The position numbers and the translations under genes are program-made. The notes beneath the pieces were generated by a model. That model did not search any database. It was given only the letters and a program-made list of their open reading frames with translations, and was not told where the DNA came from. Of a DNA stretch of 64,000 bases, positions 9,741-38,900 are shown piece after piece; within the stretch, counting starts at the first letter, position 1, and each line of letters starts with the position of its first letter. The stretch is from Tubulanus polymorphus (lineage: Eukaryota; Nemertea; Palaeonemertea; Tubulaniformes; Tubulanidae): contig NC_134031.1 of assembly GCF_964204645.1 (NCBI RefSeq), positions 19,217,307 to 19,281,306 on the forward strand, read 5' to 3'.

Positions 9741-10390
9741 ATTTCCCCCAAAATGTGTTACGCGGAACGCATACGTATTGGAAAATAACGATTATTATTT
9801 GCACAAATTTCACTCGATCTATAAACCTGTTTTTTAGTAGTAGAAGCATTTTAGTGTAAATGAATATAAAAAGAATACATTTTTTAAAATCATGACCAAG
9901 AACCATAACAGATTCGGCCAGGAATGAACTGATTACAAATTTTATTGCAGTTTACAAAAGTGATCCGGCCGATTAGGAGAAACAAGGCTTTTTAGGCTTA
10001 TTTCCGAATAAAAATCATAATTGAGGGTGGTTGCCACACTCGGAGGTGTTGTTATTATCTAAGGGCTACTCAGCGGTGTGAAGGCGATCGGGAGATGATT
10101 TAACAAGAGTAATTTCCACATAATGTGTCTTCCAATAATAATCACTCTAAGTATCTACTGCTGATACGGACTGACATTGATTGGCTTCATTTTTTCTCCA
10201 TCTCGATCTTGTCTCGAATCTCAGAGGAGATATAAGTGCCATCGGAATTCTGCGCGCTCACCAGGACTTGCGCGCGAGGCGGTGTTTTTATCACGCCTTG
10301 TCTGGTTAGGTTCTCATGTCCATCGGCAACCACTGTTCTCACTTTCCACGATTATTCTAAAATAACGAAGCAAAATCTTCGATATCTTTA

Positions 10391-11452
10391 ATGGATGATT
10401 ATGCCGCCACAATACTTCTTTCAAATCGAACAAATACAGGAACGTTAACTCCGTCTTACATCGGTATTATCATCAACCCGACGTCACTCTTACCGTTAAC
10501 TTACCGATGGTTCGTCTACGTTATAACGGGCTTATCGCTCTTCCTCGGCTATATCGGTAATATTCTTATCGTACGTGTTATGCTTACCCGTAAATTGAGT
10601 CGTTTATCGTACAGTCGTTATTTTCTATCACTAGCTCTATCGGACGCGACGTTTCTATCGGTTGTAATGTGTAAGTATATTAATTTAGCATGTGTCTATT
10701 TTTTCGGATTTATTCTGATTCGCGTTGATTCGACCGCGTTGTGCAGAGCAGCCGAATTCGTCGTGAATCTATCGATAACGTTCAGCGCCTGGTTACTGGT
10801 ACTCATAGCCGTTGAAAGACTCGCCGTCATAAGTTCCCCTTTTAAAGCTCGGCGGTTCTGGACCCCGCGAACAACTTCGCTGTTAAGTTCCTTCCTTTTT
10901 ACGTCATGTTGCATTCTATATCTGTTCAATTTATGGGATATTTTCTACGTTCCGAAAATTGGTTGCTTTTATACGGAATTCGGTTATGAAATTCGCGCCA
11001 TTTTAACGTCAGTTTTCTGTTCATATTTACCCACTGTTCTGTTGACTATTTTCTCGTCTGTGATGGTCGTCTGTTTACGTAAGAACAACCGAAGATTACA
11101 GCGAAGTAAATTTTCCGGCAACTCATTTCATAAATCGTCACAGGCGTCTGCTTGGAAACAAAGCTCTCGCAATTTCTCATCGTCGGGTAGCAACCAAGTT
11201 ACCCGGATATTTTTTGCCGTTTGTGTATTCTTCTTGGTTACTACGACTCCCGTTTACGTCATCGTCGCATTGTTGCAGAATCCAGCGTTAACCGACGCGT
11301 TATTTCTTCCGTTCTCCGTAAGCGTTGACGTTCTGACGCTGAATTATTCGGCTAATTTTTATCTGTACGTGGTGACGGGAAAAGAAATTCGTAACGCCGT
11401 CAAACAATTGTTTTGTCCACCTAGAAAATTCTCGTCATATAAAAGAAAATAA
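10391..11452 (+). CDS. Class A (rhodopsin-family) peptide-type GPCR, intronless
   Basis: A 353-residue single-exon seven-helix receptor. The N-terminus has an N-glycosylation sequon (NRT, residues 12-14). TM1 carries GN at 56-57 (N1.50), TM2 LALSD with D85 (D2.50). C118 at the top of TM3 should pair with C192 in loop 2. The DRY position reads ERL (142-144) with VISSP after it. TM6 has a proline (TTTPVY) but no CWxP. TM7 ends NYSANFYLY (318-326) in place of NPxxY, a form seen in FMRFamide-receptor-like and related invertebrate peptide receptors. A basic tail ends SYKRK. The ATG chosen leaves a normal-length ectodomain; the next Met is inside TM1. An AATAAA lies at 11649-11654. The ligand cannot be told from sequence; a plasma-membrane neuropeptide receptor is inferred. 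Confidence 0.9.
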   Translation: MDDYAATILLSNRTNTGTLTPSYIGIIINPTSLLPLTYRWFVYVITGLSLFLGYIGNILIVRVMLTRKLSRLSYSRYFLSLALSDATFLSVVMCKYINLACVYFFGFILIRVDSTALCRAAEFVVNLSITFSAWLLVLIAVERLAVISSPFKARRFWTPRTTSLLSSFLFTSCCILYLFNLWDIFYVPKIGCFYTEFGYEIRAILTSVFCSYLPTVLLTIFSSVMVVCLRKNNRRLQRSKFSGNSFHKSSQASAWKQSSRNFSSSGSNQVTRIFFAVCVFFLVTTTPVYVIVALLQNPALTDALFLPFSVSVDVLTLNYSANFYLYVVTGKEIRNAVKQLFCPPRKFSSYKRK

Positions 11453-14729: not shown

Positions 14730-15283
14730 GATTAGATGAACGATGGTTGTCTGTCAAATTTTGACTGGTTGCCTGTCTTATTCTACGAAACAATTTCTCG
14801 GATTTTGACTTATTCGAAGGTTCACATTTCTTTACACAGAAAAAAAATCTTATGACTTCCCCTCAGCAGGGATTTTTGTTTATGGAGACCTCGTCAAAAC
14901 TCAATGGATATATGATTAAAGCTCTAAATTGATGTAGATGTTGGTCGAATTCCGGGGCTGCCTAACACGAACGGCCCCGGGCTAGCTAAGTTCGGCACCA
15001 ACGAACTTTCCATTATTTTCTATCGTAATTTTGTGATATTACAATAGTTGCCGGTACTGCGTAATTCTACGAACAGATCTGCTCATTACACGAATTCAAT
15101 GAAAATGACATTCGCGACAATTTCTTTAAAACAACATATTTTCATCGGTCCTGGTGGCGTTATAAAGGACTTTTTTAATGTTAGATTTAATTTATCCATT
15201 CCATCAACTCCGGGCATCAACTTCGGCGAACGGCAACCAAAAGCCTAGCAGCGAATCAAAAAAAGTGTAGCTATTTAGCTAGG

Positions 15284-19513
<4,230 letters not shown>

Positions 19514-26281: not shown

Positions 26282-27144
26282 AAAAGCGGCACCAAGAGGC
26301 GACTAGTGAAATACATTACTGAGTGTTATATCTGTCACAGTGTAGGCCTGCTACTGAATACGAGTATATATGTCAATAAACATCTGATTATCTTTTCGGT
26401 CAATCTTCTTCTTCCGCTTAAATTCCCTTCGTTTTGAAGATTCTCGGAAACTGTCAGTCTGTTGAAAGAGTTTCTTTCTGAGATCAGTGAATCGGGGAAC
26501 ACGAGGTCATGTCCTGACCGAATAGGCTGGTTTCACTGGGTTCCGACCTGCCATCTCATTGCCACAAACATCCTATCCAAACAAGCCAAGGACTCACCCA
26601 AACCTATCCAACAAGCCACGAACACAGAACTCACAAACACTGTTTTCATCAGTGTAATTCATTAGTGAGTCGGGAACCATTGACATGCCCTGCTGGCTGA
26701 ATATAACATTGTTTCACTGGCTGGATTCGGAACTATCAGTTTTGGGTCAAAGCACAGGTAAAAAAACAAATCTATTTTATGCTTTAACAAGTTTTCTTTT
26801 TCCGAGCGAAAACGACACGACGAAGTTAGAAAAGCGAACGTTTTTATTACGCAAATCTTAATTGAAATAACACGAGTTTTACAAACATTAATATATATAT
26901 AAACACATGAAAGTGGCCAACGAACCGGGGATAATGTTTCCTCAATTAACTCGGGCAAGAAACAGAATCTATCACTTCCAATCATTATAGAGGTTAAGGT
27001 TAAATTGTAGTATACGGAGACCGGTTCCGGTTCTGTAGCCAATGCCTCGATAAATCTCATTATTACATCATTTTAGCACGTCGGAAATCGTGGTATGATA
27101 TCGTTCATCAGACCCGTCTATTATACTCATTCTGTAAAACCAAT
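26282..27144. other. Spacer between convergent genes
   Basis: Holds the 3'UTR and polyadenylation signal of the 25996 gene and, from the right, the 3'UTR of the DUF885 gene. A 132-codon ATG frame on the minus strand (26662-27060) has no domain I recognise and lies in what should be untranslated sequence, so it is not called. Confidence 0.5.
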
Positions 27145-30100
27145 CTAAAACAACGAATGATGCGTAGCGTTCATGAATAACGTCGTAAGTAGTAAGACGA
27201 ATGTCGATTGACGCATCCTGTGTGCAGACGATGTGGTTTTTTCGATCCAACTGTTCACAGATGCGTGTAATATATCCAGCGACAACGAACCACCTTTCAA
27301 CACTATATTGTGAAAGTCTTTCACATTGAATTTATCTCCTGCAATATGAAATGAAATCATGATGATGGGCACCGTTAATCGAAAATGCAATCTCTATATC
27401 ATGGAAATCCAAATTTTTGTAATGAAGATATTTCAGAATTTCGACATGTTTCCAACTTTTTCCGTCGGGCCAGTAATCTCTTATAAAGAAATTCGTGAAA
27501 TTTGGATTACATTTATATCAGGCTGCCATGTGGGATTTTTCCCAAGTCTTGGCAACATGTTGTCCAATATTGCACAAAGCCATTTAATGCGAAATTGGGG
27601 TATTGAAATGAAAAAATATTGATTTTCAACTATTTACCTAGGGCTTGTTCTGCCCGTCTGCGCATTTTGAGTATTTGTAATTCGCCGACTTTGTACGCGC
27701 ATGCCTGACCAGGCCACGTGATGTATCGATCGATTTCGACCTCGATCTGGTGTAGGGGGTCTGTAAGTCTATCCGATAGGTAATTGATAGCCTCCTGTCT
27801 CGTCCAACTGTAACAGATTCAAAGATCAACAATCAATTCAAATAAAAATAATCCACGAAGCAGAGATCTGAAAATGTTTAGCATATTTGAATATTCAAAT
27901 ATGAAAACATAAGATATTCAAATTTGAATAATTTATGTTTTCATATTGATGGGATCAAATTTCAAATTTTAATGAGATTCAATGTATAAATAAAATACAT
28001 TTAACTCCATAGAGATGAATTAAGCAATAAACATGAAATAAGAGAAACTGATAATTCATTTTTTTTCGAGACAATCATGAATTATATACCATCATTTAAC
28101 CTTTAGGACACAGTTCCACAGTTGTGAGTTAGAGTTAACTCTGAGTTAAAGTTTGTTCATTTTCAATGAGTTAACTCAGAGTTAAAACTCGGAACTTTTG
28201 GACTGGGTCCAGGAGAAAATGTGTTAATTGAGTGAATTAAGTTCAATTATCAAGTTTTTCATATGAGTTCAAAATTCTGTTTGTGCACCAGATAACATGG
28301 ATAATGTTCGCGATTAATTGAAAGGTCCAATAAATGTTTTGTACAGAAGAGTAAATTAGAACGTACTTCTTGTAGTGCAAACCGGTGTCAACGACTAAGC
28401 GACAAGCTCTAAACATTTCAGACACATAGCGACCAAACCTGAAAAAAAAACAGAACGCAAAATACATGTTCTGTACTTGTGAACGGAAAAATATGAGAGA
28501 AATCACAATTCAGCCAAAGGCCGTTAGGCTAAAGATAGCCATTAGCAGGCAGTACGCGAAATGATAGTCTTTATCCGAAACGTTGCTCAAAATATACCGT
28601 CTTTCATTCAGGACCTTTATTATCTTTGGCTGAATTATTGTGGGATTTCTCTCGTATAGTCATCTAATACTGATATTGCGTAATCTCTTCTAATAAGACT
28701 TATCAGTGATGAGATATACTCACAATTCGTACGGATATTCGTAAAGACCTAACTCTTTACCTAGATATTCGGCGTAAAGCCCCCATCCCTGCGGAAACAA
28801 CGTTCAAAGATGATATAAAAAACTTTGATATGAAATCCTACACTAAGAATGAAAACATCCAATGAGTCCAAAATGTTTTCTTGAGCTAGCAGTTTATTCA
28901 ACGTTTCCATTCAAATGATTACTTAAAGATTGTACGTAATTAAACCTGGCTACAATATTGTGGGAATTGTGTAGCGATTTTGTCCACTTACCTCGGTATA
29001 GGATGTGCCAAACGGGAATTGAAATGGGACGGCGTAATAGTTTCTGTAGTCGACGAATTTTCTGAATTTCGGTAAATCGGCCAGCAACATGACACTGATC
29101 TATAATCAATTTGAAGGATGTGAAATGGTAATCAGTTTCATATGCATGTTATTTTCAAATTCGTAGTAAATGAATACCTGCATGTGATGTCCGGGATCAG
29201 CCTCGTGAAGACAGAGCGCCAACATGTCAAAAGTCGGCCTAGAAAATGTTTTAAAAAACGATCAATTATCAGCTCAGAATATTGCTTGCGATATGATTAC
29301 ACGAGGTTAATCATAATAACGTTTACAGAGGAATTCGATACAAGAAAACGTGCATGAAACAATCGAAGATTTGAGAGAAAGTTTTTGAGTATGATTACAC
29401 AGGATCTAGTAATACATGAAGTGGGTTTAGAACAAACATTTAGAAACTGAAAAAAACCAAAATGCACTAAATGCGTAACAACTACAGAAAAACAGTCGTA
29501 TAATTTATTTTAATATGCTGGTATCATCTGCTGCCTGTAACCATGATCCCCTCATAAAAATCATCATTTGATGGGCAAACCCTAGGTCATGACAATCTGA
29601 CTTTCCATGTATGTTGATTGATCGCTATGTCAATGAGTCAGCAATTCATTTTCATATGAAATGTAAAAGATCAGTTTTTGTAGATGGCTGTAGTCAGTCG
29701 ATTATGTGAGAGAGTCTGGGTACAATGCAACAGATTGATATCTGCAGCAATTATCGATTCGATATTTCTAGAGTTAAATCATTCGAGAGAAGATCCGGAT
29801 GAAATTCGGGCAGTTTTATCTTTTCCGAACAACACGGTTTAGTAGTATACCTTTTATCGGGTTGAAATACGTTCGCTACGAATACGCCTGGTACCTTCCC
29901 ATCTGCGGATACGTCATAATACATTCCACCGGGTTCATCTGGTGATTCGGATGCTTTGACACTGTTGCCCGATATTCATCAATATATACAATAGATATAC
30001 ACAGTAAACAAACGATTAGTATTTCAGATGAATCAGTCTCAATCCGTTACAGGGATCGAGAGTAGAAGATAACTTTAGCAGCAATCATCCGCAGAACGAA

Positions 30101-33100
30101 GGGGAGGAAGACACGAAAAGTTTTTATTAGAATGTGTTCATGTTTGGTAGACAAATTCCAACTAGTTTTGAGCCAGAAGATTTTGTAAGTAAACTTTTTA
30201 GGTCTTGGCCCCACATCGAGAAAAGATATTCAAAAATTGGCTAGGAAGATACTAATCATAAGCAATAACCTTGCGTAATGGTGGAATATGTATTTCCGGT
30301 TATTGTGCGCGCAACCCCCCCTGGCCAACGCCTTGTTAGTGGTCAAACAATCGAACGATAAGCGATACGGCGTTCGCTTAGAGTTCTGTGGTCAAACGCA
30401 TCATCTTATGGCAAGCGTCCAATACTGACGGGTAAACAAACGAACTATTTTATAGGGGGATAGTTAGGAAAACCTAAGGAAAGAAAATAACGTGCGGTTA
30501 AAAAGACTCAAACAATGATGTTACAGATGATACAACATAAACGGATACAAGAAACTATTAACATACGTAATATAGCATCAACACATCACATGCATTGCTT
30601 ACTACATGTAATACCTTTTATGGGGGTCATGAGTATTGATCAATAAATGGGACCGAATTTTGCCATCTGCCGAACCGCGCATGTACATGGCTAACGGGGC
30701 ATTCTTGTCACCTGATGTTATACTGTATAAAAGTATTTATGCATTTATATATTCAACGTTTTTCTGTCGACAAAAACTGGTAATCTCCTGGGTCCAGTTC
30801 CACAGTACCGAGTTTAGATGTAATAACTCTGAGTTAACTCATTGATAATGAACTAACTTTAACTCGGAGTTAACTCTTACTCACAACTGTGGAACTGGGT
30901 CCTGGGATTTAGTTTCAAAATCGAAGTCAAAGCGGAATTTAAAACACGTGACGCTTAAGTTTGGCCAGGCGTCAATATCATTTATGCTCAAATCATCTTA
31001 TTCATATTACTTACATCAATGGTAAATTCGGAATATCTTCTTTATGGAAAACCTTCGGCAATGTTTGTTTTGTTCGGTTGAAAATGATGTTTCTGTATTC
31101 GTTCAAAAGATCTTCCTAAAATGATAGTGGCTATAAACACACCGTGGATTCTGACAATGTATCACATATTTTCTTACTCCAATTCATCGTGATAACGACC
31201 TAACCCTGCTCCGAGACTGCCCCGGAATTTGTGACCTTTGAAGAGAATTTGTTGGTCTCGGGAATTCAAGGCAAGCAGTCTACCGCATACAATTCTAGTT
31301 AAAAGCTCAATCTTCATTGGTGAATTATTTTACCTTCGTTTTCAGAAAGAATCGAGGCTGTTCCTTTAAATGGTTGATGAATTCTTTGATAGTTCCCTTG
31401 AACTGAACGCCTTCCATGATCTTGAAAATAAAAGCAGAAAGCACAAAGTTCCCCAATGGTTGGGATATGTCAAAAGGGACCCCGATTTTTTTGAATCTTC
31501 CTATGCAAATGGTTATTTCTTTGTTTGTATGTTTTTGCTTCGCCTCGTTTGGACCTCAATTCTCGAAGTCTAACTCTAAAGGATTGTGTATATTCAACCT
31601 AAGGCTCTACGGCCTTTGAAGTGTTGCCCGCACCAGGACTCGAACCCACTTGTCACTCAGCATTGATAAAGATTGATAGCATCACACCCTATCACACTCA
31701 TTGAGCTACCGGGGTCGCTTTTTTATACATCTGAAATTGTCCCTTTTCCCTGGGATACGTTGACTAGAGGTGTTCAACCAGATTCAGAATAATCCCCTTG
31801 GATTTCACTCGCGTATCGACGACAACGATAAAAATGAACTGTGATGGCGGAAGCGCACACTTCAACATTAGTCCCATATCACTAATGCCTTCGAAAAGAG
31901 AAGAGAACCATTAGGACTGATTTTCTGTGATCTTCTTAACGAATTCACGCCGGCGTTTCTTTTTCTGAGAAATATCTATCAACGTAAATGCTTCGGCAGA
32001 ATCGCGCCGTCAGATTAATTCCGACGGCACCTGTGTCCATGCGTTGTGCCATACTACCCGGCACGCTCGTCTCCATACAACATACGAACTAAACTTAATC
32101 CCGCGCGGATAAAACGGCCAAATGAAACAGCCATTTCAGCCGCGACAGGAGATTTTGTATCGTGTTTGACAAGCGCAAGCACGTGATTGAATTCGACCAA
32201 TAGGAGCGAGCAGCGGTGAGAGGAGCGCAGAATCATAGAGGTTTTACAGCCATGTTTTTCGATTTGACTACGTCATATTGGTTGGATAAAGTGATTCACA
32301 TCACAGACTCTCTGTTCGTATATATCTAGGATCCAGTTCCAAAATTGGGTTCACATTCGACTCTAAAGTTAAAAACATTGAAAATGAACAAATCCTAACC
32401 CAAAGTTAACGACTGTGACACTAGATCCTGATTATCTTGTTATGAACGGCAAGTGTCCAGCACAGGTTGGTAAACGAACGATGACGTCACACGCTAGCAG
32501 ACGACATGGAGGATCGAATGATTGCATTGAACTAGAAAATGGCGACGAAACTTCAATCGATAAACATGATCTAATCAAATAATTAAATTAGCGCAGTTAT
32601 AGATCACGCTGTTGCATATGTACCTTGTGCATCTCTGCTGCAATACGGGCGACCTCAGAATGTCCCAGTTCGTGTACTTTATCGGGAGTCATATCCGTAG
32701 AGAGGTGCCATTTCAATGCGGCCTCGTAATATTCAGCGCCCCCTGGTAGGCTCGACACGCCGTATCCGTTCCGTGTGTTTGACAAATATTTCTAGAAAAA
32801 TGGAGTACAATTGAGTCGTTACTGTACTGAGTTTCTTAGTTTTTCTTGATAATTGTGGGTTTCTTCTTCAATTTAATCATAGACAATCACTTTTCATAGA
32901 CCAAGATCATGTCTATGGGAACCAGTATTTTGCAGATAGCTATTAATGATAGGATGTTAAAAGCTCGATGAACTAAACGGTTACATACACACCTGACTGA
33001 TGTATTCTGAAAGGTTTCTAAAAGCTCCGTAGATTTCATTTCGAATTATTCCCTTAGCCTTCATTCGTAACTGTTCCCTAATGCAAAAAGAAGGTTTTGT

Positions 33101-35942
33101 ACTTTTGCGTTATGTCTGTTGTAAAACCTTTTTCATAAAAAGATATGATCATTTCGGAATCAAGATTAACCCTGTAGTGAGGACATACTTGTATGTACTG
33201 TTAACCATCGTTAACGCATCCAGCGTTTTATTAAACGGGGTGTAGAGATAGAAACTGGTCGGCTGAATGGCCAAAATCTTCTGGATTTGTCCCGGAACCA
33301 GTTTCTGAAAAAAGAACCGTATGCAATAATTGCGTTCAGAAAATCAGATTACAATTCGTCAAAAACCTACTGTGATTATTTCTAAAAAATAACAAACTTT
33401 TATCACTAGTTTTCCGGTTAAGGATTGATATTTAACCCTCAAAAAGATATTTGAAACCACTGATACAATGTTGATTGATTCACAGTCGAAATTGCACGGC
33501 GAGGAACTAGGTCATCCAATGCATCAACGTCAAATAAATCTATCAATTACTCACAATTGAAACAGCGTGCATTGTCTTTTTAACTTTAACGGCTTCTTCG
33601 AGCAAGTCTTGCGTTTCTTTTATCTAGAATATGTACGTTAAAAGTTATTTTTATGAATTTGGATTCGAACCGCAACGTGGCGGTTTAGTCGGATCCGGAA
33701 GCGTTGCATTGCGCCATCTTGTAACACGCCTGTTTACCTGTTGCGCGATCGCGGACATTCTTTTCAAAAACGTGAGAAAATCGTTCACCGTGTTAAAAGG
33801 TGTAAGAGACAATAGTGAATTGTGCCCCTTTTGTGGTCCCTCTAAAAAGTTGATGGCGTTGTAGGTGAACCTGCAAAATATACACAAAGAGATAGGTATA
33901 GATTTAAGATTTCCTCGGTGTGGGAAAATGATAATTCCTAACGCTGACTTACTCTTTATATTTGTGACCCTGCGTGTACGTTAACAGTGTGTTCTGAAGC
34001 ACTTCGTAGTTCATTTTATCTTTAGGCGCCAATAAATTGGGATCAATTGATTTAATATCCCGTAAAAATGCATCAATTTCCAACTGTATCAAAACAAAAA
34101 GATCTGAAAAACTATTTTGATAAAATCAAGTCCCCAATTCGCGTATTTCCATGAAGATCTTAGGCAATTTTTATATTTTTCAAGAACTGTAGACTAGACA
34201 AGTTGACATTTAGGATAATATTACGTATACGAGCTTAAAAGATTTATTTTTTGTTTGATGATGTAAAGTAAAGGGCTACCTTCCTTCGATCGAATGTTGC
34301 CAAAGTCAATGACTCAACTCGATCATTGAATTCATGCTCGCCAATACCAGTAGCGAATAACGGGTACTCTTTTATTCTCCATTGCCAGAACCGTTCAATC
34401 AATTCGTCCACTGCTTGTTTAGCGCTATCTGAAATATCACCATCATGTTCTATTTCAAGATAAAAATTCTGGGAGACAATTTTAGATAAAATCACCCACG
34501 TTGCTGGCGGCGTTCGAGAGCGCTGATGGAAAAAGCGAATCGAAGCCTGTTGAACAAACAATAATTTAAAAAGTGTTCGTAAAACGTTGTTTCAAGTCGG
34601 AGCCTCCCCCGACAAGAACTTCCGAGAATCTGTCTCCTGGTAATGTAGAGATCGGAGACTCATCGGTAATCGAATAGAATCGCCTCTAATGGAACGGATT
34701 CAGGATGAGTGATATTTTGTAATTTTTTCCCCTGGTGAATGTTTTGCCTTATCGGATTAAAAGTATGAAGTATGGGCCTAAAAGCCGGCGCTTTGATCAT
34801 CGACGGTGCATCCGTTATTCGCTTCTGTAACGTCGGATTGACAAGACGCGGAAGTGAAAGTAACGACCGAAGCGCACGCGCGTTGACATGGCCACCATGT
34901 CGTGACGTGACCGACCGGATGCGTGTACGACAGCTTTCAGAATAAAACAATTACGAACGGAGTTGTATTGACACTTGGTGCTGTTTATCCGTGGCGCGCG
35001 ATTGAAAGGATGTTCATCTATTTTCGATGCGATGCGAAATAAATCTTCGGAGATTCGATTACAACACGCGAGAGTGGATAAATCAACTACACTTTCCTCG
35101 TGCATACAACCGACCGACTAAATTATGAATAATATTTCCCCCGAAGCTTTATTGTCACACGTCGCCGCCTGCTGAAATTTATAACCGACAAACGCTTCAA
35201 AGTAACGAAATGATAAGCCACGAAATTGCCGAAATGCGGCACGGAATGAACTAACCTATATGAGGTCGTGGAAACGGTTCAAATAACCATGTTACATTAC
35301 TAAATATCGTTGATTTAAACTCTCGAAAACAAGAATTCAGAGTACAGTTTTACGAGAAATTTAACCTCAAAATTTTGGTTCAATTGTTACTGGTTACTTC
35401 ATGTTTTCATTAAGGACAGCCATTCAAACTTAACCATTTAGGCTAAGACCTTTTCATGAAACTGGACCCTGAGCAGATATTCTTCATTACAAATCTATTC
35501 CATTTTTGTTTATGGTTTCTGGACGGTATTGAATGCTGGCGTACCTCGGGGAAAACGTTAAAAAGGCGACGATACGTTGAACGAATGAAATGAAGAAAGA
35601 AATTTGTTTTAAAAATTAATCGTTACAAATTAAGAAGTGCCTTATTTAAGTATAGACAATAGACTGACAAGCATCTTATATCTAAGGAATTAGTTTCACA
35701 AAAAGGATTTACTCTTTACAATGGATTTGATATCGATTGAATAAATGAAGAAATTGAGTCAAAACATTGAATCAACTAAACTTTTTTCATCGAAATTCGC
35801 GTGATCCCGATAGTGTAAAGCGCTAGCGATTCCCCGCGGAGTCACTGAGAAATAAACTTCAATATTTACCTGCTGCGGTTGAGATGGTAACTGCTGTACA
35901 CATCACACACAAAATAAACACGGCCATTTTTTTCGGAAACAT
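27145..35942 (-). CDS. Secreted DUF885-family protein (putative metallopeptidase-like), about 17 exons
   Basis: Minus-strand exons: 35942-35870, 34428-34280, 34083-33953, 33870-33738, 33623-33555, 33304-33189, 33077-32993, 32791-32624, 31420-31334, 31115-31015, then 30722-30615 (A) and/or 29961-29851 (B), 29238-29178, 29099-28992, 28788-28724, 28438-28367, 27807-27638, 27338-27145. Phases match at every join. With one of A or B the product is 629 or 630 residues, typical for DUF885 (PF05960); with both it is 666. A signal peptide (MAVFILCVMCTAVTIS) is alone in exon 1. Family landmarks: HELGHSEVARIAAEM, HEADPGHHMQ (419-428 in isoform B, the HExxPGHH motif), GWGLYAEYLGKELG, EIDRYITWPGQACAYKVGEL, and FNVKDFHNIVLKGGSLSL. 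A hydrophobic C-terminus (TFVLLLTTLFM) might be a weak GPI signal. The family is mainly bacterial and its reaction is not established; a secreted Zn hydrolase is inferred from the His motif. Confidence 0.92.
28106..28210. repeat. Foldback MITE, CAGTTCCACAG / CTGGGTCC ends (copy 1)
   Basis: GGACACAGTTCCACAG to GGACTGGGTCC, with inner arms AGTTAACTCTGAGTTAAA and TTAACTCAGAGTTAAAACTC around TTCATTTTCAATGAG. It is in a DUF885 intron. Confidence 0.8.
29851..29961 (-). other. DUF885 gene, alternative exon B
   Basis: 111 bp, acceptor GGGCAACAG, donor AG|GTATAC. It encodes VKASESPDEPGGMYYDVSAD followed by GKVPGVFVANVFQPDK, closer than exon A to the usual DUF885 pattern (YY..SADG..PG.F.N) preceding the HExxPGHH exon. 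Confidence 0.75.
30615..30722 (-). other. DUF885 gene, alternative exon A
   Basis: 108 bp, acceptor TTTTATACAG, donor AG|GTATTA. It starts with one base and ends with AG, exactly like exon B. It encodes ITSGDKNAPLAMYMRGSADG followed by KIRSHLLINTHDPHK. The shared frame (M-Y..SADGK....N..P.KR) shows it is a duplicate of exon B. Either exon joins in frame to the upstream AT and downstream G-CCG ends. Confidence 0.7.
30788..30906. repeat. Foldback MITE (copy 2)
   Basis: GGGTCCAGTTCCACAG to CTGTGGAACTGGGTCC, the cleanest termini of the family, 16 bp nearly perfect. It lies in the intron just upstream of DUF885 exon A. Confidence 0.85.
31617..31722 (-). mobile_element. tRNA-derived SINE in a DUF885 intron
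   Basis: On the minus strand: GCGACCCCGGTAGCTCAATGAGT (A-box TAGCTCAATGAG), then, 60 bases on, GTGGGTTCGAGTCCTGG (B-box), ending GCGGGCAACAC. The anticodon region does not make a normal cloverleaf and the spacing is long, so this is a SINE head and not a tRNA gene. The 3' limit is unclear. Confidence 0.6.
32329..32430. repeat. Foldback MITE (copy 3, diverged)
   Basis: AGGATCCAGTTCCAAAATTG to CTGTGACACTAGATCCT, with TTGAAAATGAACAAAT at the centre as in the other copies. It is in a DUF885 intron. Confidence 0.65.
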
Positions 35943-38900
35943 CTTTGACTGACAAAATAAAACAATATATAACTGTAGAAAGAAGAGAAGGCGTTCGGTG
36001 AAATATTGTACAACATGTTCATAGTGTTTACATAGTTAGAACTTGACTGAAGTTTGACAAGACGTGGCTTCGTTTGGAGTCGTGGAACAGAAAACAATAA
36101 ATAGTTGAGAAGTTACTCATAACAGCGGCGGGTATATTGAAATATGTACTAAGCAGTTATTTTTGAATGATAAGGGTGAGGATAACAAGACCCCTTTATT
36201 TGAACGGTTATCAAACATAAAACGTATCATATTATCCTATCCTCTTACACATGAAAATAACTGAAGCTAGGTTTATAGACTAAGTATTGGCATAGGTTGC
36301 GTATAGGGGTCCTGTTCATTACATATCAATACCTGCGACATCCCAGTATATGAGATGATAGTTTCAAAAATCAAAAATATATAATATCCACGGATAAGAG
36401 CCTATACTACCTAACCTTACACGTTAGTGGAGTAGACGTTGATTCAAATTGGAGAACGTTACGATGGTTGCATTCATATTTAAGTCAATCGTTGTTGTTT
36501 TTGTACTTACCCTTCCCGGGACGCGTATATTGTACGAATCACAGGTCAATTTACAATCTAAACCTATCCGTAGACATTGGCGTCGCTATCTTACGGTGAA
36601 ACCCGATACTTAGATTTATATGAACAGCTCTTTGTCTCTCGATGTCACGATGTAGATAACTTTACAGACACATATATATGTACATACAGGTACAAGTCGC
36701 TCGTGACGATAACATTAAGTATTTACATTGGCTTCGAAATGTCGTATCGATAACCAGGGATATTTTGATGTTAAACTGTGGGTTATTCAGTGGTTAAAAA
36801 AACACGGGTTCTCCGGGGTTAAAGATAGCACACATAGGTACGTTAACTATATATGGCGATATACATTTCACTACGTTATGAATTATCGTTAGTATAATTA
36901 CATTTTTGACCTCGGTCGTTTCTGGGTTACTCGAACATCATCTGAATTTATATATATACGCAAATTTGTCCAGATATACATGTATATACATATATACTAA
37001 ACACTAACATGCATCATCCATTCATGAAACACTCCGAGTCCGCGTCGAAGGATAATACGAAAATCCAAGACTAAGTGTGAAAAAAGGGAGTCGTCATCTT
37101 CAGAAATGCTGCGGTAGAAGGATCTATTCGAAATGCGAATAGAAATTTGCTCGAGGAAACATTTCGAACTGGTTTTTTTTAGTATATTCTTAGTATAGGA
37201 TTTCATATAACCAAACTACAGGTTTTCAGACTGATTTTTTTTCCATACAAACACGTGTCATTAATCCACGTCAAATAGATCTTTTGTTCGTAGACGTTTC
37301 GTTTTCTAAAATGACGTAATCTATAGTGATACATAACGCATATCTAGGACACATGTAGATGCAGTGTTTTGACGGCGGTGTCATTAAAACGTTCACACAG
37401 TCACCGATAGGGGTCTCTGTTTATTTTCCTTTCTCGCAATAGAACGGTTGAAATATTACATCAGCCCACTTTCAATTATTAACACCCCATCAATCATTCC
37501 TAATCATTTTTTTCCAGTATCAATTCCAATAACGAACATTAAATATTTAACAATAATCAAGACCTCCGCGCAGAAATCGGTTCAATAAGAAGATGTTTGA
37601 CGAATAGGAAATACGCGCTTTCTTAACGTGCGCGTTGTTGCGCCCTGCCGTGCACAGCAACTTGTGATAAGTCAAATCGCTCCTTATTAATTAACACGGA
37701 ATGAGCTAATATTCAATACCCTACTAATACTATACAGATATCGGGTGAGATGATATGGTTTCTAGGTCTGGAAATATTTCATCTGTCACGGGAGTTGGCC
37801 AGATACGTGATCAGGCTGTTAAACGTGGCTATACCCCTCTGGCTAACTACTCACGTATGCGAAGAGGTTGTCAGGATTACACACCACTATATCGTCTTAA
37901 GCTAATTGGAAAATTGGTTGCCATTTCTTGCCGATAAACGAATAGTCGCAACATCCCAGGCTATACTGCAATAGATACCGTTTTCGCGTGACTGACGCCG
38001 TTTTAACGGCCAACCCCGAAGGGGTTTGAATGACCGATTCAAGAAATATACAAATGACTAGAGTATTTTTTGTTGTTATTCACGCTGCATGAGTCCAACA
38101 CTGGCGGTAAAACAAACTATAACATCACGTATGTAATCTCTAGTGGTTCCACTTTCACGCGGTCGTTGAGAGTAAAATTCCACTAAATTTGTAAATGAAC
38201 AACATTTGAAACAGATTTCGGTGTGATACTGGTCCCAGTGGGTCACTAAGGGCTAGGATATAGTTCCACAGTTTCGGGTTGACTGTGGAGTTGGATTTAT
38301 CAATTTTCGACTATAACAACCAAAAACTGCGTGGAACTCATAGACCCTATTTAAACGATGATTGAGTTACCACTTAAAGTTGTTAAGTCTTAAACTGTTT
38401 TTATGCTGCATCTTTAGTTTGTATCCTTTTACTTGCCTTCCTAAAGATGGCAGGATAAAATCGAATCGTCGAATCAAGCGTTAGCTCAAGGAAACATTTT
38501 CCCACTCATTTTAGTCTAAGCGTGAGATTGTATATTATCGTTAGTATAACACGGCCAGAGTGTTTCATCATTGGTTATTACCACCGTCACACTTCGACTC
38601 ATTTGAATTATTTTAGCATTTTTGATTATTGCGCAACGAAATTGCTACGAATCCGAAATTTGAGCAATTTGTTCTGTTTCTGCCACGGGTTTCACACGGC
38701 ATTCGCGATGGAGGTTCGGATGACTCTGTCACATCTGAGAAATTCTTTCCTTCGACGAAAATTGCAGCAACGGAATAATGATCGTGTCCCTAATTTCAGA
38801 GCCTAGAAATCGACTTAACAAGCAGCGTTACAAAGAACCTGTCGAACAAGACAGATTGGTCTAAAATACCAAGTAGTAAGGACTAATTTATACAGAGAAA

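Follow-up and report, generated by a model that had tools for sequence, protein, structure and literature searches.

In a DUF885 gene of Tubulanus polymorphus, the piece of the protein directly before the metal motif is encoded twice, by two adjacent homologous exons (A and B) that are probably used alternatively, in a predominantly mutually exclusive manner. A and B are internal exons lying side by side, of lengths that differ by far less than 20 amino acids (108 and 111 nt), with compatible GT-AG sites, equal phase at both ends and no in-frame stop. As this covers all of the sequence criteria for mutually exclusive exons, it counts for exclusive use.

The DUF885 gene and its paired exons

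The exons are found in a window of 64,000 nt (the whole stretch of DNA that was analysed), which is part of a contig of 21.6 Mb (C7) in an assembly of 268 Mb from an animal with intron-rich genes. The plus strand of the window also contains a long open reading frame (10361-11449) with a match to 7tm_1, the rhodopsin-type GPCR family (E 9.8e-17), and exons of an argininosuccinate synthase gene (15191-16464).

The product of the DUF885 gene begins with a signal-peptide-like stretch, spans a full DUF885 domain and ends in a hydrophobic C-terminal tail. When compared at full length with the Pfam DUF885 profile (PF05960; gathering cut-off, 32.4 bits), the predicted protein containing B (isoB) scored 470.4 bits and that containing A (isoA) scored 459.1 bits, with positions 1-531 of the 532 in the profile being covered. 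The DUF885 signature, namely HEADPGHH (the HExxPGHH metal motif) and, downstream, TEGWGLYAE (the TEGW motif), is present and was aligned to PDB 3o0y; the gene is predicted to encode an M32/ACE-like zinc peptidase fold. A search of the genome revealed two DUF885 genes, with the paralogue being located at about 437-444 kb of the same contig. In both proteins, a signal-like start is accompanied by a short hydrophobic end (window 27200-27145, minus strand; paralogue L007:2940-2868), a combination that suggests GPI anchoring or membrane attachment of the two. The gene and the exons considered here are the following.

27145..35942, minus strand: entire DUF885 gene, with A and B among its 18 exons (27145 is approximate)
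35870..35942, minus strand: exon 1, with the start codon and the signal-peptide-like N-terminus MFPKKMAVFILCVMCTAVTISTAA; also recovered by protein search
31015..31115, minus strand: upstream partner exon E10, ending in phase 2, ..CCATTGAT/GTAAGT
30615..30722, minus strand: exon A, 108 nt, phase 2 in and out, ITSGDKNAPLAMYMRGSADGKIRSHLLINTHDPHK(R)
29962..30614, minus strand: A-B intron, 653 nt
29851..29961, minus strand: exon B, 111 nt, phase 2 in and out, VKASESPDEPGGMYYDVSADGKVPGVFVANVFQPDK(R); the family-like, ancestral-type copy
29178..29238, minus strand: downstream partner exon, which encodes the metal motif HEADPGHH

Exons A and B thus lie between E10 and the HEADPGHH exon, with GT-AG sites at both, and comprise 35 and 36 complete codons, respectively. 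Because each opens with a single T that completes a codon and closes with AAAAG/GTAT, either can join the next exon in frame. Proteins of 629 (A alone), 630 (B alone), 666 (A and B) or 593 (neither) residues would be generated. The coordinates, phases and splice dinucleotides of A and B assigned in a preliminary description, as well as the in-frame joining of each to E10 and the HEADPGHH exon to yield 629, 630 or 666 residues, were all reproduced exactly. Likewise, the product containing one of the two exons is, as had been proposed, of normal family length, while that containing both splits the Pfam match in two.

Homology, age and origin of exon A

The homology of A and B, also claimed earlier, was borne out by a local BLOSUM62 alignment score of 54, reached by none of 20,000 shuffles (highest score, 44). 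Across all six frames of the 64 kb, the remaining stretches of 20 or more residues uninterrupted by a stop scored 38 at most against A or B. An exon search was also re-implemented on WebScipio criteria, namely AG..GT borders, equal phase, length within 20 amino acids, absence of stops and a BLOSUM62 score of at least 15% of the self-score (PMC3228551). Applied to the 29 internal exons of the gene and its paralogue, this search returned a single match, that of B to A (0.225 of the self-score), and recovered exon A with exactly the boundaries previously given; the best value for the other exons was -0.007. In the slot that either exon fills in the Pfam DUF885 profile, local scores of 182.2 bits with B, 170.9 bits with A, 144.7-152.4 bits with six shuffled versions of A and 142.8 bits with no exon were obtained, with A exceeding its shuffled versions by about 20 bits. 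Given these slot scores, the shuffles and the sequence search, the similarity of A and B is beyond chance and exon A is a true copy of this piece of the DUF885 domain. The preliminary description was hence correct in that each exon fits the slot, but the two are not equally typical of the family, since isoB outscores isoA. Neither the window nor the paralogue nor the rest of the genome yielded a further copy of A or B, and the DNA of exon A with its flanks occurs once in the genome.

In the paralogue, the slot corresponds to one exon of 111 nt (exon C), with phases as in A and B, and the WebScipio-type search detected no hidden copy of a slot exon in the introns flanking C. Exon C aligns to B with a score of 81 and to A with a score of 38, and SADGK, common to A and B, is absent from both the paralogue and the bacterial consensus. 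In light of these scores (including the 54 of A and B), the shared SADGK and the single exon of the paralogue, it is most likely that A was copied from B within this gene after the two genes had split and subsequently evolved faster, with A probably being the derived copy; loss of a duplicate A-type exon from the paralogue offers a possible alternative. As synonymous sites are almost saturated (pS 0.74; pN 0.47), the A-B pair is judged to be an old tandem exon duplication. The introns flanking A and B no longer align with each other.

Repeats were noted in the introns of both genes. In the paralogue, most of the intron before the slot exon, i.e., the place corresponding to exon A, consists of a G+C-rich minisatellite of 26 copies of a 26-bp unit (L007:5565-6243). 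The DUF885 gene of the window contains, some 60-180 nt before exon A, an inverted-repeat element (30905-30785) built from a short repeat that ends in GGACCCAGTTCCACAGTTGTGAGT...ACTGTGGAACTGGACCC; this repeat is found again in another intron of the gene (28210-28110). Units related to this repeat appear in 44-bp and 20-bp tandem arrays in introns of the paralogue (L007:3173-3462 and L007:4023-4453).

The slot and the active site

A scan for bacterial relatives with the animal alignment gave no match, and a second scan, seeded with 3o0y, provided 80 relatives. Eight slot residues (G, Y, D, G, P, G, Y/F and N) are conserved in 74-80 of these 80 proteins, none of which contains a tandem duplication of the slot. 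Exon B includes all eight of these near-invariant residues; exon A includes four, keeping Tyr, Asp, Gly and Asn and losing Gly, Pro, Gly and the aromatic residue.

The position of the slot was determined using the AlphaFold model of a Colwellia relative (90% identical to PDB 3o0y; mean pLDDT, 90.2), in which it corresponds to strands 425-428 and 438-442, followed by a helix (452-462) at the end of which HEANPGHH begins. The placement of the swapped piece directly before the metal motif, as described earlier, is in line with the two strands that precede the active-site helix in this model. Outside DUF885, the fold neighbours of the model are M32 carboxypeptidases (Z 14.5), MATCAP (Z 14.4), M3 oligopeptidases and ACE (about 11). 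In enzymes of this kind, a strand ahead of the metal helix binds the substrate backbone. Given the position of the slot beside the active-site helix, swapping A and B could alter substrate use or weaken the enzyme while leaving the rest unchanged, and it is plausible, as judged from the model, that the two isoforms differ in substrate choice. Since A has lost four of the eight near-invariant residues, an altered or weakened enzyme is, for the A form, as possible as a change in specificity.

Use of the two exons and comparison with known systems

Two further features are of relevance to splicing.

30589..30594, minus strand: Rbfox-type hexamer UGCAUG, 21 nt beyond the final base of exon A
30017..30023, minus strand: UACUAAU, the best branch-point-like site for exon B, 54 nt from its acceptor, with no AG between

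Among the 32 acceptors of the two DUF885 genes, that of A comes 29th (score, 3.3) and that of B, which has almost no pyrimidine tract, 32nd (score, -6.2); the donors of A and B score 6.2 and 6.6, respectively. Weak acceptors are expected for regulated exons. The transcribed strand of the gene (27000-36000) has no UGCAUG besides that downstream of A, and the chance of finding one within 100 nt is about 2%, a motif density at which UGCAUG alone is weak evidence for regulation. Rbfox proteins bound just downstream of an exon usually promote its inclusion. When considered together, the weak acceptors of A and B and the UGCAUG that follows A suggest regulated splicing.

With the lengths of both exons being divisible by three and the intervening intron spanning 653 nt, neither frame nor crowding would enforce exclusivity. 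Enforcement by frame was rejected, as inclusion of both exons or of neither also preserves the frame, as was steric enforcement, given the length of the intron and the distance of about 590 nt between the candidate branch point and the A donor. Reliance on the minor spliceosome or on mixed U2/U12 sites was similarly rejected, as all sites are GT-AG of the U2 type. In a crude test of competing RNA pairing among the three introns, the best duplexes were no better than those of dinucleotide shuffles, and complementary runs between introns were limited to short ones of 10 nt.

In the scheme that we infer from the DNA, and this holds for expression of A, exclusivity, the regulator and the catalytic effect alike, two secreted or surface isoforms would be produced, differing only in the pair of strands next to the active-site helix. 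The standard form, used by default, would be B, while A would be a variant whose use in some cells depends on a splicing activator, perhaps of the Rbfox type and acting through the UGCAUG just after A, with B being easily skipped because of its weak acceptor. More tentatively, and as a proposal that we hold to be doubtful, this could amount to a tissue-controlled switch of a substrate-facing two-strand element in a secreted metallopeptidase, pairing a normal B form with a retuned or decoy-like A form that would keep the fold but lack the Pro-Gly and an aromatic residue next to the active site.

Alternatively, B could be part of nearly every transcript, with A being an optional cassette that is sometimes added, yielding 666 residues with a duplicated two-strand segment, or that appears in a minor A-only form. 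Joining of A and B is in frame and faces no physical barrier and, although on the fly X chromosome look-alike exons spliced otherwise occur in only 6 of 1705 genes (PMC3228551), human surveys have revealed many adjacent similar exons that are not mutually exclusive (PMC5740500). Still, inclusion of both exons splits the DUF885 match, which then scores 462.6 rather than the 470.4 bits obtained with B at full length, and 175.6 rather than 182.2 bits locally; moreover, no relative in the set of 80 bacterial proteins has a doubled slot, and the 36 extra residues would sit in the folded core beside the metal motif. We thus deem optional inclusion of A unlikely. The in-frame junction and long intron would equally permit constitutive splicing of A and B together, such that all transcripts encode 666 residues, yet the same objections (the split match, the lower bit scores and the 36 residues in the core) apply, and the slot is single in the paralogue as well as in the bacterial relatives, making this a very improbable state of affairs.

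It is also conceivable, if quite unlikely, that A is a dying or silent copy that goes unspliced or gives rise to an inactive product. The loss of the Gly, Pro-Gly and aromatic residues kept in 74-80 of the 80 relatives would be in keeping with decay, as would the near-equal differences between A and C at the three codon positions (19, 20 and 22 of 35) and a codon model in which neutral change on the A branch was not rejected (lnL difference, 0.34), a test with no power at saturation. By contrast, A contains no stop or frameshift, differs from B by one clean codon indel, and retains intact splice sites, its donor being as strong as that of B (6.2 vs. 6.6) and its acceptor stronger (3.3 vs. -6.2). 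Of the six readings of A, that in its own frame has the highest coding score. In neutral simulations assuming 0.6 substitutions per site (for A, the codon model gave a neutral estimate of 0.64), frame and splice sites were kept in 3.8% of copies when indels were ignored and in about 0.005% when indels were included at an assumed 8% of substitutions. Intact survival of A at such divergence would, therefore, be unlikely without selection. Alternative and largely exclusive use of A and B remains the reading that we prefer.

No papers on exon swapping in the DUF885 family were found among open-access papers. The closest protein comparison is with the Colwellia psychrerythraea DUF885 lipoprotein (PDB 3o0y), matched over residues 158-599 (E 1.1e-72) with the metal motif included, and, through the Colwellia model, with M32 carboxypeptidase and MATCAP at Z of about 14 and ACE at about 11. 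Unlike the animal gene, the bacterial copy is intronless and has one version of the slot. Should both forms be made, two enzymes differing by one exon next to the active site would reveal the role of the strand pair, offering a natural experiment in a poorly characterised peptidase family.

In terms of splicing, the pair resembles OGDH exons 4a/4b in that the second exon has a branch-point-like site that is set back (by 54 nt here), with no AG between (PMC7969005). In OGDH, however, a distance of 25-41 nt separates the branch points from the upstream donor, which they block sterically, a mechanism not applicable here, given the distance of about 590 nt from the A donor. The pair also shares UGCAUG in a flanking intron with Caenorhabditis elegans homologous exon pairs under RBFOX control, although there the motif either follows the second exon or precedes the repressed one, whereas here the putative site follows the first exon (PMC3585155). 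The two-exon clusters described with WebScipio (PMC3228551; PMC5740500) likewise consist of neighbouring internal exons that are nearly equal in length, share a phase and have compatible sites, and that encode homologous peptides inside a folded domain; the present candidate pair differs in that lengths divisible by three leave exclusivity unenforced by frame. If the preferred reading is true, the catalogue of mutually exclusive exons would gain an enzyme active site.
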